Source: Acidobacteriota bacterium
GTDB taxonomy: Bacteria > Acidobacteriota > Terriglobia > 20CM-2-55-15
NCBI GenBank assembly: GCA_003222815.1
Contig: QHXC01000165.1
Span: forward strand, 1-34,208
DNA length: 34,208 bases
Reading direction: 5' to 3'
Shown: one piece after another, positions 2,995-28,309 of the stretch
Numbering within the stretch: the first letter of the stretch is position 1
Layout: each line of letters starts with the position of its first letter
Program-made: the position numbers and the translations under genes
The notes under the pieces: model-generated
Told to the model about the DNA's origin: nothing
Seen by the model: only the letters and a program-made list of their open reading frames with translations
Database searches by the model: none

Positions 2995-3444
2995 TCATCC
3001 GGAAGCCTTCGCCGGCAGGATCAGGCGGTCGAGGTCTTTGAAGCGGGCGAAGCCAGAATCGAAACTCACCAGCCGCATCCCAGCGGTCTTGGCGAATGCG
3101 GCCAGGTAGGCGTCCGACCAGAAATCCCGCTGAATCTTGGCGCCTTTGGTCAGCAGCTTCAAATTCGGCTCGATTCCTGCGGGCTCGTCGAGAAATTGCA
3201 CTACGCCGTTGGTCAGCAGTTGCTCGCATTCCACCCACGCAGCGGCCGGCTCAAATGTTAAGCGGCCCATGACCAGCCTGTTGCAGAGCAATCGCAGAAA
3301 TCCCAATTGGGTGATACGGCAGAACGTCGGGCGTTTCAAATCACCCCATGCCTTGAGCGCCGCCCTGTGATGCGGATGCCCCTCGACGGCGAACGCCAGC
3401 CAGACATTAACGTCCAAAAGATCGGCGATGGCGCTCAATGTCAT
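2995..3444 (-). CDS. vapC: PIN-domain toxin of a VapBC-type module
   Basis: A 149-residue PIN-domain protein. The N-terminal LLDVNVWLAFA (first conserved Asp), FWSDAYLAAFAKTAG (third acid) and LVSFDSGFARF (final acidic strand) are the standard PIN landmarks of the VapC ribonuclease family. The second motif reads RITQLGFLRLL, with Gln where many VapC proteins have Glu; I believe this occurs in the subfamily, but activity cannot be assured. VapC toxins cleave tRNA or rRNA and stop growth. The ORF overlaps the upstream antitoxin frame by 38 bp, giving the usual antitoxin-first, toxin-second order. An internal TTG at the LLDVN codons is an alternative start that would shorten the overlap. Confidence 0.85.
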   Translation of the reverse strand: MTLSAIADLLDVNVWLAFAVEGHPHHRAALKAWGDLKRPTFCRITQLGFLRLLCNRLVMGRLTFEPAAAWVECEQLLTNGVVQFLDEPAGIEPNLKLLTKGAKIQRDFWSDAYLAAFAKTAGMRLVSFDSGFARFKDLDRLILPAKASG

Positions 3445-3682
3445 CCTCCTCTTCGAGTTTGGCGATCGCCTGGTTGCTCATCTGCTTCAGCAAAGGTCCG
3501 CCTTTACCGCGCACCAGCGGAAAAGGACACGACTTGGCTTGGCCTTCCGCGTTCGTTTTCGGCTTCGCCAGATACGCACTTAAGGCAGAAGTCACGAAAT
3601 CCTTAAGCTTCACTCCTTCCATTGCCGCCCGAGCTTTCGCCTGCTTGAACAGCTGATCAGGGATTTCCAGTGTCGTTTTCAC
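3407..3682 (-). CDS. vapB: Ribbon-helix-helix-type antitoxin of the VapBC module
   Basis: A 91-residue protein starting at GTG (KTTLEIPDQLFKQAKARAA). The N-terminal beta strand followed by two helices (residues about 2-40) matches ribbon-helix-helix antitoxins, which bind their own promoter as dimers. The charged C-terminal tail (IAKLEEEDDIERHRRSF) would wrap and neutralise the PIN toxin. The toxin gene follows with a 38-bp overlap, so the two are cotranscribed. Autoregulation by the antitoxin-toxin complex is usual for the family; I did not find a clear operator palindrome upstream. Confidence 0.8.
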   Translation of the reverse strand: MKTTLEIPDQLFKQAKARAAMEGVKLKDFVTSALSAYLAKPKTNAEGQAKSCPFPLVRGKGGPLLKQMSNQAIAKLEEEDDIERHRRSFGR

Positions 3683-21561: not shown

Positions 21562-21656
21562 TTACTCACCACACAAACCCCGCTGTCCTCGTTTTCACGG
21601 GGACGGCGGGCGGTCCGTGAAATGGCATTCCCCTCCTGGGCTCCTTGGTTCAGGAG

Positions 21657-21854
21657 GGCTTTGTACAAAAAGTCACTTGCTGGTTTCCGAACATCGCCGA
21701 TTCGCATTCGCCGATCGCCAATGTCTAACAGCCATGTGCAAGCAGCCAAAGCAATTGCCGAGGATATTGCACATCTTTGTTGCGTACCTGACGATTGGCG
21801 ATTGCAGATTTCAGATCTAGCTGCGTGGCCGTTGCCGACTTTTTGTGCAAAGCC
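21657..21854 (+). mobile_element. MITE-like element, copy A
   Basis: A 198-bp element with 18-bp terminal inverted repeats, GGCTTTGTACAAAAAGTC and GACTTTTTGTGCAAAGCC, one mismatch. TTCAGGAGG occurs directly repeated at both outer ends (21649-21657, 21856-21864), consistent with a target-site duplication of about 8-9 bp. It encodes no protein. The second copy (23692-23888) is its reverse complement with roughly ten differences by eye. The absence of a transposase is typical of a MITE mobilised in trans. Confidence 0.82.
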
Positions 21855-22003
21855 ATTCAGGAGGAATCCGCGGCTCGCGAGTCACTTCACGATTTCGCGA
21901 AGAATTTCGCGGTTCACTCATGCAATGTTCGAACAAACCGCCATTGCTCAGTTAGTTGCTTATGGCAACTGCGTTGCAGTTCAAGCCGCGACGGGAGGGC
22001 AAC

Positions 22004-22186
22004 ATGATTCGCATCAGAGTTCAATACGACGCACGCAATCGGACATTCAAGCTTGTCGATCAGGAATTCAGAACCATCCTCGAAGGCGATGCGATTTACG
22101 ACTTGGGCATACCGCTAACGCTTGAAGAATCCGACGAAGAGGATGACTTCACTGTAGTGAACAACATTCCGATTGCTCATGCATAA
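22004..22186 (+). CDS. Small acidic protein, 60 residues, unknown function
   Basis: The ORF track begins at 21956; ATG 22004 has the proper GGAGGG Shine-Dalgarno. The product is IRIRVQYDARNRTFKLVDQEFRTILEGDAIYDLGIPLTLEESDEEDDFTVVNNIPIAHA: a short beta-strand-rich start and a very acidic stretch (EESDEEDD). No export signal is visible. I do not recognise a family. It lies between MITE copy A and the RND operon and may be its own gene or belong to the operon; the next ORF starts 27 bp later. Confidence 0.65.
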   Translation: MIRIRVQYDARNRTFKLVDQEFRTILEGDAIYDLGIPLTLEESDEEDDFTVVNNIPIAHA

Positions 22187-22213
22187 CCCGACGGTACGAA
22201 AAGGAGGAAAGTT

Positions 22214-22354
22214 ATGTCCACCAATTCGGTTTCAATTTCATCTCACGGCCCGCAAGCCATCACTGTCATGAAGAACGCTTCGATGCTGGGAGCGGGACTC
22301 CTTATCGCTAGCTTTGGCTCCGGACCGTTAAGTTTGGAAAGGAATGTCCAGTGA
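22214..22354 (+). CDS. 46-residue microprotein coupled to the RND adaptor
   Basis: Too short for the ORF track. ATG 22214 follows a strong AAGGAGGAAA Shine-Dalgarno. The product STNSVSISSHGPQAITVMKNASMLGAGLLIASFGSGPLSLERNVQ has one hydrophobic patch (about residues 23-34). Its TGA (22352-22354) overlaps the GTG start of the adaptor (22351-22353), so ribosomes could pass straight on. It may be a leader peptide for translational coupling or a small membrane subunit. Confidence 0.55.
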   Translation: MSTNSVSISSHGPQAITVMKNASMLGAGLLIASFGSGPLSLERNVQ

Positions 22355-23661
22355 AGTCTTCAAATGCTTATTCACGGCTCCTCGCGACGCTGCTTATCAC
22401 AGCAGGCCTGACGCTAGCCGGTTGCAACACGCAAGCAAGCATCTCGAACGCGGCTTCATCTCCATCAGCAACGGAAGTCTCTGTGATCACCGTGAGTGCG
22501 GAAGACACGCCCATATACAACGAGTACGCGGCGCAGACTTTTGCTCGCGACATGGTCGAGGTGCGCGGCCGAGTGGATGGCTACATCGAGAAGCGTCTAT
22601 TCGAAACCGGTTCAGATGTGAAGGCCGGGCAGCCGCTGTACATCCTAGATCTCCGTCCTTATGAAGCCGAGGTAGAAAAGGCCCGGGGTGACTTGTCACA
22701 GAGTCACGCAAATCAAGAGTTCGCCGCCCGGCAGGTCGCCCTGCTTCAGGCCGAAGCGGACCTCGCACAAGCTCAAGCGAACCTTCTTAAAGCGCAGCAG
22801 GATGTGGATCGCCTGCGTCCGCTCGTGAAACAGGAGGCCGCACCGCTTCAGGACCTGGACAATGCTGTCGCTGCTCTGCAAGCGAACCAGGCCAACGTTC
22901 GTGCCAGGCAAGCCAGCGTGGAGCAAGCCCGGCTTTCAACCAAAGCTCAAATCGAAACGACAGCCGGTCAGGTGGAATCTCAGAAAGCGTCGCTTCGGTC
23001 CGCAGAGCTGAATCTAGAATACGCCACGATTCGCGCGCCGATCAGCGGGCGGATTGGCGACAGTCTCGTCCAGGCCGGCGGCCTCGTCACACGCGCTTCT
23101 GCCCAGCCGCTCACAACGATCGTTCCGCTCGATGTGATCTGGGTGCGGTTCAAGCTGAGCGAAGGTGAGTACTTCGATTATGAACGGAGGAAAGAGAAGG
23201 AGCCCAATCGAAGCATTCCCCTGGAATTGATCCTTGCCGACGGCAAACTCTATCCACATGTCGGGCGTATCCAAAACACGGTCAACCAGGTCGATTCCAA
23301 GACGGGAACCATAGAGATTCAAGCGACGTTCCCGAATCCCGAGCGAACGCTTCTCCCCGGCCAGTTCGGACAATTGCGGATGCGCGTCGAAGATCGCAAG
23401 GACGCGATTCTCGTTCCGCAGAGGGCCGTGCAGGAATTGCAGGGACTGCAGTCGGTGTTGACGGTCGGCCCGCAGAATAAAGTTCTGGCTCGCACCATCG
23501 TGACCGGCGAACGCGTGGGCGAGCGCTGGGTCGTGCTGAAGGGGCTGGCGGCTGGCGAGCGCGTCATCGTGGAAGGAATCCAGAAGGCGATGCCGGGAAC
23601 TGTGGTAGACCCAAAACCCTACGAAGCCGCCTCAGGATCGGAGACTTACGGTGTCCCATGA
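22351..23661 (+). CDS. RND efflux membrane-fusion (adaptor) lipoprotein, AcrA/MexA type
   Basis: A 436-residue adaptor starting at GTG. The lipobox LTLAGC puts the acylated Cys at residue 25, so it is an inner-membrane-anchored periplasmic lipoprotein. The order is beta-barrel start TPIYNEYAAQTFARDMVEVRGRVDGYIEKRLFE, lipoyl half GSDVKAGQPLYILDLRPYE, a long alpha hairpin (about 110-215; LLQAEADLAQAQANLLKAQQDVDRLRPLVKQEA), second lipoyl half YATIRAPISGRIGDSLVQAGGLV, then the beta-barrel and membrane-proximal domains ending at KAMPGTVVDPKP. It should join the inner-membrane pump to the outer-membrane factor. It appears intact. Pump and outer-membrane factor follow, separated by MITE copy B, which lies in the 280-bp gap. 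Confidence 0.93.
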   Translation: MKSSNAYSRLLATLLITAGLTLAGCNTQASISNAASSPSATEVSVITVSAEDTPIYNEYAAQTFARDMVEVRGRVDGYIEKRLFETGSDVKAGQPLYILDLRPYEAEVEKARGDLSQSHANQEFAARQVALLQAEADLAQAQANLLKAQQDVDRLRPLVKQEAAPLQDLDNAVAALQANQANVRARQASVEQARLSTKAQIETTAGQVESQKASLRSAELNLEYATIRAPISGRIGDSLVQAGGLVTRASAQPLTTIVPLDVIWVRFKLSEGEYFDYERRKEKEPNRSIPLELILADGKLYPHVGRIQNTVNQVDSKTGTIEIQATFPNPERTLLPGQFGQLRMRVEDRKDAILVPQRAVQELQGLQSVLTVGPQNKVLARTIVTGERVGERWVVLKGLAAGERVIVEGIQKAMPGTVVDPKPYEAASGSETYGVP

Positions 23662-23691
23662 ATCGCATGTGAATCGGACTGCTCTCCTGAC

Positions 23692-23888
23692 GGCTTTGCA
23701 CAAAAGTCGGGCACGGCCACGCAGCTAGATCTGAAATCTGCAATCGCCAATCGTCAGGTAAGCAACAAAGATATGCAATATCCTCAGCAATTGCTTTGGC
23801 TGATTGCACATGGCTGTTAGACATTGGCGATCGGCGAATGCGAATCGGCGATGTTCAGAAAGCAGCAAGTGACTTTTTGTGCAAAGCC
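23692..23888 (-). mobile_element. MITE-like element, copy B (inverted relative to copy A)
   Basis: A 197-bp element, reverse complement of copy A with roughly ten mismatches or indels by eye. It ends in GGCTTTGCACAAAAGTC and GACTTTTTGTGCAAAGCC; flanking CTCCTG appears on both sides as a candidate target duplication. It sits between the RND adaptor and pump genes. With copy A it brackets 22004-23661, which could be inverted by recombination between copies. Confidence 0.82.
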
Positions 23889-23908
23889 CCCTCCTGTTCC
23901 AGGAGGGG
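23888..23908. repeat. CCCCTCCTG hairpin in front of the RND pump gene
   Basis: CCCCTCCTG (23888-23896), loop TTC, CAGGAGGGG (23900-23908): a perfect 9-bp stem. Similar text recurs at 33968-33984 (CTCCTGTTCCAGGGGGG) and 21631-21658, so it is a small dispersed repeat and a possible terminator-like or mRNA-stability element. Confidence 0.55.
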
Positions 23909-23941
23909 ACTCAAGGTTATCGGTAGAAAGGACAGTGAGAT

Positions 23942-26900
23942 ATGGCCAGATTCTTCATTGATCGTCCGGTCTTCGCGATTGTGATCGCAATCGTGATTGT
24001 GATTTTGGGGGGCGTCGCCATCCCGAATCTACCGGTCGCCACATACCCCGAGCTCGTTCCTCCTGTCGTTCAGATTGTCGCGAACTACCGTGGTGGAAAC
24101 GCGCTCGATCTTGAAAGAACCGTCGCGCAACCGATCGAACAGCAGCTCACGGGACTGGACGGAATGCTCTACTTCTTTTCGCGGAGCTCGAATGACGGTG
24201 TGCTGACCATCGATGTAACTTATGAGCTTGGCACCGACATTGATCTTGCGACGGTCAAAACACAAAACAAAGTCAATGTCGCATTGCCGTCGCTGCCGCC
24301 CGAGGTTCAGCGCGTGGGCGTCACGGTGAAAAAAGTGTCGTCCGCATTCCTGCTGGCCATCGGTGTTTTCGCAAACGATGATCGATACGATTCCCTCTTC
24401 CTCAGTAATTACGCGACGATCAATCTCGTGGACAAGATCGGCAGCATTCCTGGTGTTGGCGACACGCGGCTCGCGGCCACACAAGACTACGGCATGCGAG
24501 TTTGGATCAACCCGGACAAGATGGCAAAGCTTGGGTTAACGGCCACCGACGTGAGCCGGGCAATCCAGTCGCAGAACCGCCAGAACCCCGCCGGCGCGCT
24601 TGGCCAGCCTCCTGCGCCGATGGGCACCGATTTCCAGTATCCGGTGACCGCATCGGGGCGGCTTCTGGAGCCCGCGCAGTTCTCCGACATCATTCTGCGA
24701 GCCGAACCCGATGGATCGCTGCTGCGACTTCGCGACATCGGCCGTGTGGAGCTTGGCGCGCAGGACTACAAATCTTTCAGCTGGCTCACGAAGAAGCCTG
24801 CCGCGGTGATCATCGTGTATCTCTCGCCAGGAGCGAATGCGGTAGACACGGCGAATCGCGTCATCACGTTCCTCGACGACGCGAAGAAGAATTTTCCGGC
24901 AGGCATCGAATACAAAGTCGGTTATGACGCGACCCGATTCGTCCGGGCGGCCATCACCGAAGTCGTTGAAACACTTTTCATCGCGGTGGCGCTAGTCATC
25001 ATCGTCGTCTTCCTGTTTCTCCAGAACTGGCGGGCGACGCTCATTCCGCTGCTGACTGTACCCGTTTCGATCATCGGTACGTTCGCTTTGTTTCCGCTGT
25101 TGGGCTTCTCCATCAACATGACCAGCATGTTCGGTCTCGTACTCGCCATCGGCATCGTGGTCGACGACGCAATCGTGGTTGTCGAGGCGGTACAGCACAA
25201 GATCGACCACGGAATGAGTCCTCGAGAAGCCACGATCCAGGCAATGCGCGAAGTGTCGGGACCCGTCGTCGCCATTGCGCTGATTCTGAGTGCCGTATTC
25301 ATTCCCGTGGCGTTCCTCGGGGGCATTAGCGGCCAAATCTACCGGCAGTTCGCGCTGACGATCGCTGTGTCTGTGTTGATATCCGCGTTCAGCGCCCTTT
25401 CGCTTAGCCCGGCGTTGAGCGTCATGCTGCTTCGGCCGGAAAAGACAACCAGGGGAAACCTCGGCCGCTTCTTCGGCTGGTTCAATCGAGCCTTCGATTG
25501 GTCGACTGGCCGCTATCTCGCTGGTGTTCGAACTTTCATCCGCAGGTCCGCGCTCGCGCTCGTTGCTCTGGGCGCGTTGTTCCTCACCGTGGGGGGCATG
25601 TTCAGAGTTGTCCCGGCCGGTTTCCTTCCAGATGAAGACCAGGGCGTGATCTTCGTTTTAGTGCGGCTGCCGGACGGTGCATCCCTTGAACGGAACGAAA
25701 AGGTCACGGCGGAAGTCGAGAACGTTCTTCTTTCGATACCTGGTGTCCAGGATACGACGACTCTCGGCGGGCTCGACATCACCACGCGGACCAACAGCTC
25801 GAATGTCTCAACAGTCATTGCGGTGTTGAAGCCGTGGGAAGAAAGAAAGTCAGAAGCCCTACAGTTCGGCAACATTCTGACCCAGGCGAATGCGCGCGCA
25901 AGCCGGGTCCAGGGCGCATTCGTCTTTGCTTTCGGATTGCCACCTATTCTGGGCCTTGGAACTTCAGGTGGGTTTGAGTTCATGGTCGAAGACCGCGCGG
26001 GTGTGGATGCCAACAAGCTTGCCGATGCAGCGCAGGCTCTGGTCAACGCTGGCCGGACGCAACCGGCGCTTGGTCCCGTCGCGAATACGTTCCGTGTGGC
26101 CGTGCCAAGTTATCGCGTCGACCTCGATAACGAGAAGGCGCAAACTCTCGGTATTCCCACAAGCGATGTCTACGACTCAATCCAGACTTTCCTGGGCGGC
26201 CTCTACATCAATGACTTCAACCGGTTCGGCCGAACCTGGAGAGTGATCATGCAGGCCGAACCGGAGTATCGCAAACATCCGGACGCGGTGAACCGGTTTC
26301 ACGTCCGCAATGGGAGTGGCGACATGGTGCCATTGAGCACACTGGTTACGATGAATCCAACCAGCGGCCCGGACGTGATCTACCGGTTCAACCGCTATCG
26401 CGCGGCCGAACTCATCGGGCAAACCAAACCGGGCTTCAGTTCCGGCCAGTCCGCGGCGGCAATGGAGGGGATCGCGCGCAAGAACCTGCCATCCGGATTT
26501 GGTTTCGAGTGGACCGGAACGGTTTTTCAGCAAAAGCTGTCGGAAGGCAAGGAGAGTTTCATCTTCGGGTTCGCCGCGATATTGGTCTTCCTGTTCCTGG
26601 CGGCTCAATACGAAAGTTGGGTCATTCCATTTGCCGTCGTTCTGGCGGTACCGCTGGGTGTGCTCGGTGCGCTCACAGGCGTACTCCTCCGCGCCTATGC
26701 GTACGACGTATATACACAGATTGGCATCGTGACGCTCATCGGCCTCGCCTCGAAGAACGCGATTTTGATTGTCGAGTACGCGAGACTGCGGCATGAAAGC
26801 GGCAGATCGATCGTGAAAGCGGCGCTCGCGGCCGCTCAACCGGCGCGCACTCGGGACAACCGTGTTTGCCGGAATGACCGCTGCCACGCTACTCGCCGTG

Positions 26901-27005
26901 TTGTTTGTACCAACGCTGTACGTCGTCACCCAAAAAGTCGCCGAACGCTTGAAGGCCGCGCCACAAGCGGCTCAGCCAGCGCCGGCGCCGGAGGTGGAAG
27001 GATGA
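23942..27005 (+). pseudogene. RND efflux pump (AcrB/MexB type) with TM11 deletion and frameshift
   Basis: Residues 1 to ~965 read like a normal hydrophobe/amphiphile RND pump: ARFFIDRPVFAIVIAIVIVI, PEVQRVGVTV, TM4 GLVLAIGIVVDDAIVVVEAV with the paired Asp of proton transfer, RVVPAGFLPDEDQGV and GLASKNAILIVEYAR with the relay Lys. At about 26838 the family run LRLRPILMT...GAGAAS (roughly 31 residues, TM11) is missing; the continuing RRALGTTVFAGMTAATLLAVLFVPTLYVVTQKVAERLK (TM12) is one frame over and stops at TGA 27003-27005. In the actual frame the ORF runs on 1186 codons to 27502, passing in frame into the outer-membrane factor. Substrate specificity cannot be told. A working pump is unlikely because TM11 and its threonine of the relay are lost. 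Confidence 0.9.
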
Positions 27006-28309
27006 AATACGCGCTAACCCTTTTCATTGCGACGGCAATTTCTATGTCCGGCTGTGTCATGGGACCGAACTACCAGCGTCCCAAGCTGGAGACGCCTCCT
27101 GTATTTCGCGGCGCTGAAGCACCAACAAGCGAAGTTTCGCTTGCCGAAACACGTTGGCCGGATCTCTTCAAAGATCCTATCCTGACTGATTTGATTTCCA
27201 CCGCGCTACAGCAGAACTACGACATGCGGATCGCAGCCGAACGCGTGCTTGAAGCGCGTGCACAGCTCGGCATCACGGGATCCGAGTTGCTCCCCACTGT
27301 TGATGTCAATGGCACGTTCGCAGCAAACCGGAATTCTCAGACCGGTTCGATTCGATTTCTGCCAAGGGGAGTCAGTACCGACGTGAGTTACACGCAGGCT
27401 GGCTTCCATCTTGGCTGGGAACTCGACGTCTGGGGAAGACTGAGACGATTGAAGGAATCGGCACGCGCCGAGTACCTTGCCAGCGAAGAGGCGCGGCGCT
27501 GAGTGACAACGACGTTGGTGGCCGACGTCACAACGGCATATTTGGCGCTGCGCGAATTCGACATGGAACTCGAGATTGCTCGAAAATTCCTGCGGTCCGC
27601 CACAGCGCAGATCGCCGCATCCGACCGCCTCATGGCACAGGAAGAAAATGCAGTGAGCGTTCTGCTCGGTAAGGCGCCCGCCGATGTTCCGCGCGGGAAA
27701 AGACTCGACGAGCTTGCTGCTCCCGCAGAAGTGCCGGCAGGTCTTCCGTCAAGTTTGCTCGCAAGGCGCCCCGACATTCGAGAGGCTGAGCAGAAGTTGA
27801 TCGCCGCGAATGCTCAGATTGGCGCCGCTCGGGCCCTGTACTTTCCCGAGATCTCACTGACGGGCTTCATGGGAGGCCAGAGCCGCGCTTTGACGGATTT
27901 GTTCACCGGCCCGGCCCGACAGTGGAACTTCAATCCATTCGTCAGCCTGCCCATCTTTAACGCCGGGCGCCTTCGGTCCAATGTGAAGCTGACGGAGTCG
28001 ATCCAACGCGAAGCGCTGGCCCAATACGAGAAGAGCGTTCAGACGTCATTTCGAGAGGTCTCGGATGCCCTGATCGCACATCGCAAAACCACCGAGCAAC
28101 TGGAACAGGAGCAGCTTCTCGTCAACGCACTACGCGAATCGAGCCGTCTTTCCCTTGTTCGGTATCAGGGAGGAATCGATAGCTACCTCCAGGTGCTCGA
28201 CGCAGAACGAAATTTGTTTCAGGGCGAACTCGTCGAAGCGCAACTTCAGCGTGATGTCCTGCTGTCCTTTGTTCAACTGTATCGCGCCCTTGGCGGGGGC
28301 TGGCAATGA
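27002..28309 (+). pseudogene. NodT/OprM-type outer-membrane factor lipoprotein with in-frame stop and internal deletion
   Basis: ATG 27002 overlaps the original stop of the pump (ATGA) behind GGAGG and GGAAGG. The N-terminus KYALTLFIATAISMSGCVMGPNYQRPKLETP has a lipobox (Cys18) and the GPNYxRP opening of the family. DPILTDLISTALQQNYDMRIAAERVLEARAQLG is OEP-type. After EEARR a TGA (27500-27502) interrupts the frame, where relatives read ARRGV; a single GGA-to-TGA change would explain it. The frame then continues from 27503 (TLVADVTTAYLALREFDMELEIA), but roughly 35-40 residues of the family (the segment before SAQI...QENAVSVLLG) are missing after KFLRS. The C-terminal half (RRPDIREAEQKLIAANAQIGAARALYFPEISLTG...) is good. 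TolC-like channel; product as read would be two fragments. Confidence 0.85.

Follow-up and report, generated by a model that had tools for sequence, protein, structure and literature searches.

An inverted pair of MITE copies around an RND adaptor gene in an uncultured acidobacterium, very probably two independent insertions of one dispersed family

The efflux locus and its pair of elements

A repeat search of the window, by which we mean the whole stretch of 34,208 nucleotides that was analysed, gave one inverted repeat pair, with arms of 188 nt at 21656-21843 and 23702-23889 that are 95% complementary. The pair consists of two MITE copies, E1 (21657-21854, plus strand, 198 bp, with terminal repeats (TIRs) at 21657-21674 and 21837-21854) and E2 (23692-23888, minus strand, 197 bp), one TIR of E2 being short by one base. 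The TIR is 18 bp long and reads GGCTTTGCACAAAAAGTC, as given in the original prediction, and follows the pattern GGCTTTG(T/C)ACAAAAAGTC. Alignment of E1 with E2 showed 95.4% identity and 10 differing columns, in agreement with the two elements of about 198 bp, opposite orientation and about ten differences that had been described. The 198-bp element has no coding capacity.

Three plus-strand features lie between the two elements: a 60-aa ORF without Pfam or NCBIfam match (22004-22186), a short ORF, and a complete RND periplasmic adaptor gene (22351-23661; TIGR01730). The pair thus does bracket the 60-residue ORF, microprotein and adaptor, as had been stated. E2 occupies the space between the adaptor stop at 23661 and the pump start at 23942. 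The RND permease frame that begins there (23942-27502, plus strand) lacks 89 nt near 26840 relative to the related locus L031 (region 26720-27020); this deletion shifts the frame, which runs into the outer-membrane frame as a chimera of 1186 aa and ends at an in-frame TGA (27500-27502). Downstream of the stop lies the C-terminal part of an outer membrane efflux protein (27503-28309, plus strand). At L031, where the adaptor is 79% identical to that of the window, the pump and outer-membrane gene form one frame of 1498 aa. The deletion and the stop may be real or may be assembly errors, and in either case the assembled operon is poor evidence for a working, regulated pump.

At four orthologous junctions (L031, L032, L033 and L075) the adaptor and pump genes are adjacent, without a MITE. 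E2 would have landed between these two genes, which are neighbours in the relatives, and E1 between an outer-membrane beta-barrel gene and the small ORF. Elsewhere in the window, a PIN-domain gene on the minus strand (2995-3682) is preceded by a VapB-like ORF that falls below the Pfam cut-off, and the two are a possible VapBC toxin-antitoxin pair.

A dispersed family and its hairpin targets

The window belongs to an Acidobacteria MAG of 5.67 Mb in 732 contigs, 88% complete. When E1 was used as a query against this genome, 44 matches were found on many contigs, about 24 of them spanning most of the element. A genomic search for the TIR pattern that allowed up to 2 mismatches gave 55 matches, and the reversed-pattern control gave 0. 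The original prediction had been made to depend on further copies of this TIR, and these are what both searches returned. Many of the copies lie near contig ends in this fragmented assembly. An Rfam search of the window matched no family, and a literature search did not find MITEs of this type in Acidobacteria.

E1 is flanked by a 9-bp target duplication, with a left copy GTTCAGGAG (21648-21656, plus strand) and a right copy ATTCAGGAG (21855-21863, plus strand) that agree in register at 8 of 9 positions. The stretch 21632-21656 is the left part of a REP-like hairpin target, the empty site of which reads CCTCCTGGGCTCCTTGGTTCAGGAG and then G across the junction. E2 is adjoined by the REP-like hairpin CCCCTCCTGTTCCAGGAGGGG (23889-23909), which includes an imperfect duplication of CTCTCCTGAC across the element; with a match at only 7 of 10 positions, this duplication is degenerate.

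The 9-bp length is recovered across the family. For 12 delimited elements in the window's own genome, mean flank identity at k=9 was 0.66, versus 0.31 for shuffled flanks, and it was not raised at k=7 or k=8. In the congener G003, 29 element candidates gave 0.74 versus 0.32 at k=9, with 14 perfect 9-mers. Examples of such duplications are CTCCCACCG (L004), CCTCAGGAG (L010) and GGTAAGGAG (L018). Hairpins of the form CCCCTCCT(2-14)AGGAGGGG number 92 in the genome, versus 0 in the reversed control, and a CCTCCT/AGGAGG-type motif is present at 12 of 35 delimited insertion sites in the two genomes, versus 5% of random sites (p ~7e-8). Several empty sites, once rebuilt, give an intact hairpin.

The flanking TTCAGGAGG and CTCCTG (CTCCTG/CAGGAG) repeats are therefore a 9-bp duplication within a preferred palindromic target. 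Their earlier reading as target duplications holds for E1, with its 8 of 9 matches in the 9-bp register, while the remainder of the likeness belongs to the shared hairpin target. Palindromic repeats in this lineage act as landing sites for MITEs. Being short, bounded by TIRs, free of a transposase, dispersed in multiple copies, flanked by duplications of fixed length and missing from an empty site in relatives, E1 and E2 are MITEs, as the original prediction had suggested. A second repeat family of about 160-240 bp was also observed in the same genome (at L057, L066, L062 and L041); a CCCCTCCT..AGGAGGGG hairpin stands at each of its ends, and its core is rich in GTGG/CCAC.

Readings of the inverted arrangement

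We consider it very probable that E1 and E2 were inserted independently of each other, as members of one dispersed, non-autonomous MITE family of 198 bp, and their pairing is most likely coincidental. The nearest near-complete copy to E2 is L004 (98.5% identity), and the nearest copies to E1 are L011, L015 and L002 (about 97%); both values exceed the identity between E1 and E2, a common level within the family, where 38% of pairs are at least as alike. Under a uniform-placement approximation, 24-44 copies would by chance give an inverted pair as close together as this one with P of about 0.1-0.3. A selected inversion switch is not needed to explain the pair.

The sole likely effect of E2 would be a long intercistronic RNA hairpin. 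As RNA, the E2 region has a predicted folding energy of -100.2 kcal/mol (z -3.3); for E1 together with its flanks the energy is -96.4 kcal/mol (z -5.4). E2 might in that case be a co-opted element whose hairpin in the adaptor-pump mRNA, cut by RNase III or attenuating, lowers pump relative to adaptor. Its location between the adaptor stop and the pump start and its strong fold are consistent with such a role, for which the Correia element at mtrCDE offers a precedent (PMC10969869). However, E2 shows no sign of selection and is absent from the orthologous operons, the operon itself appears decayed, and neither an intrinsic terminator nor, in a consensus scan for sigma-70 only, a sigma-70-like promoter was found in the E2 region. 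We thus regard co-option of this kind as unlikely. If E2 acts at all, it is more likely to do so as an intercistronic RNA hairpin than as an inversion switch, and a modest shift in the adaptor-to-pump mRNA ratio would be the most plausible consequence.

The original prediction went further, to a possible on/off switch of the efflux operon through homologous recombination of the two elements. In this reading, E1 and E2 would recombine to turn 21855-23691 around reversibly, parting the adaptor from the pump, and the operon would undergo on/off phase variation. Judged from the repeats, such an inversion would be possible in principle: with 95% identity over 197 bp and a spacing of 1.8 kb, the inverted repeats could serve as a recombination substrate, and E2 has the efflux adaptor on one side and the pump on the other. 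The longest run of identity between the repeats, however, is only 31 nt. Of the features of phase-variation switches, the bounding inverted repeats are present, whereas homogenised repeats are not, and no dedicated recombinase came to light nearby: a Pfam scan of the 27 longer ORFs of the window showed neither a recombinase nor a transposase. The closer relatives that each element has elsewhere in the genome, together with the ordinary identity between E1 and E2, mean that there is no sign of the gene conversion expected from repeated recombination. The duplications argue only partly against a past inversion, because CAGGAG is common to all four flanks of E1 and E2; the useful part is the E1 duplication, the two copies of which agree in register as the segment now lies. 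With independent copies that are not homogenised, this register, the chance expectation for a close pair, no recombinase among the scanned ORFs, and pump and outer-membrane genes that are broken as assembled, the proposed efflux switch is not borne out, and we find it highly improbable. For the efflux operon the main lesson is one of caution: where a genome contains dozens of copies of an element, two of them in opposite orientation about a gene do not alone make a switch.

Equally improbable is a repeat-induced misjoin of two MAG loci, an assembly artefact that the fragmented assembly and the many copies near contig ends could suggest, but which is at variance with the matching duplication on the E1 flanks and with the adaptor and pump around E2 keeping the order and orientation seen in four relatives.

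The driving transposase and comparison with known systems

At the level of the family, the question is which transposase moves these elements, and it holds somewhat more interest than the E1/E2 locus itself. The 18-bp terminal repeats would presumably serve in trans as the recognition sites of a DDE transposase with a 9-bp stagger between its cuts, and the elements favour small REP-like CCTCCT..AGGAGG hairpins. Such a trans-acting enzyme would be IS903-like in the end sequence and duplication length of its substrates.

The 198-bp body is confined to the window's own genome at useful similarity, and the same ends were found on other bodies. G003 has 188 TIR matches and a different body of 108 bp with perfect 9-bp duplications; its near-identical copies (L085-L101) and these duplications suggest that the 108-bp MITE was recently active. 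There are 51 TIR matches in G008, and in G458, from a distant family of the phylum, these ends are found on a body of 138 bp whose 9-bp duplications are perfect. A contig of a viral collection (L186, 6405-6721; IMG/VR 3300021082_000502) holds an element of 317 bp that has the ends GGCTTTGCACAAAAACTC and is flanked by the duplication GCCCCCAGG. We see an even chance that one putative type of transposase serves GGCTTTGCACAAA ends in distant Acidobacteria, where it would move short bodies that are unrelated between species (198, 108 and 138 bp) and favour REP-like hairpins, in genomes dominated by non-autonomous copies, with the driver rare or lost.

The original prediction had also pointed to an autonomous transposon with the same TIR, and none was found in the genomes examined. 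The IS903B protein as a query gave no match in 11 genomes of the host family and, in 200 genomes of the class, no element with both TIRs. A PF13737 search returned none, as it did in control genomes, and no DDE_Tnp_1 locus lay between such a TIR pair. Solitary TIRs, examined up to 3 kb in the window's own genome, G003, G008, G458 and G376, led to no element with both TIRs. Multicopy IS are lost from MAG assemblies.

Two candidate partners were considered and rejected. The first, a transposase beside a TIR in G003 (L202, G003:C16), belongs to another IS inserted inside a MITE; this element, with a DDE transposase of 538 aa, lies within one copy of the 108-bp MITE. The second, a TIR pair 863 bp in length in the viral contig L167, is not flanked by a duplication that matches.

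The ends of IS903, a member of the IS5 family, are 18 bp long and read GGCTTTGTTGAATAAATC, and its duplications measure 9 bp (PMC10569121); both features were confirmed in this analysis for IS903B in L106. The MITEs share with the IS903 group the 18-bp ends starting GGCTTTG, 13 of 18 TIR bases being equal, and the 9-bp duplications; unlike that group, they have no coding region, and no IS903-type transposase was found in the host family. As read from these sequences, the link to IS903 is one of resemblance, not of membership.

Preferential insertion in small palindromes is shared with IS elements described as targeting REP palindromes (Tobes and Pareja 2006, in the account cited in PMC3733652); in contrast to the targets of that account, those found here are CCCCTCCT..AGGAGGGG hairpins, which hold only about a third of the insertions. 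The Correia element of the Neisseria mtrCDE operon, which lies just downstream of the promoter and for which IHF and RNase III effects have been shown (PMC10969869), is likewise a MITE inside an RND efflux operon, whereas E2 separates the adaptor gene from the pump gene. Bacterial MITEs as reviewed, including Correia/NEMIS, ERIC, QMITE2 and Nezha (PMC10969869), are like the present elements in being short and non-coding, with TIRs, target duplications, many dispersed copies and strong transcript hairpins, and differ from them in TIR, in body and in host, here an Acidobacteria MAG. An uncultured lineage of Acidobacteria thus carries an abundant MITE system that reaches inside operons, and its 198-bp elements form a MITE family that is new but of a known kind.
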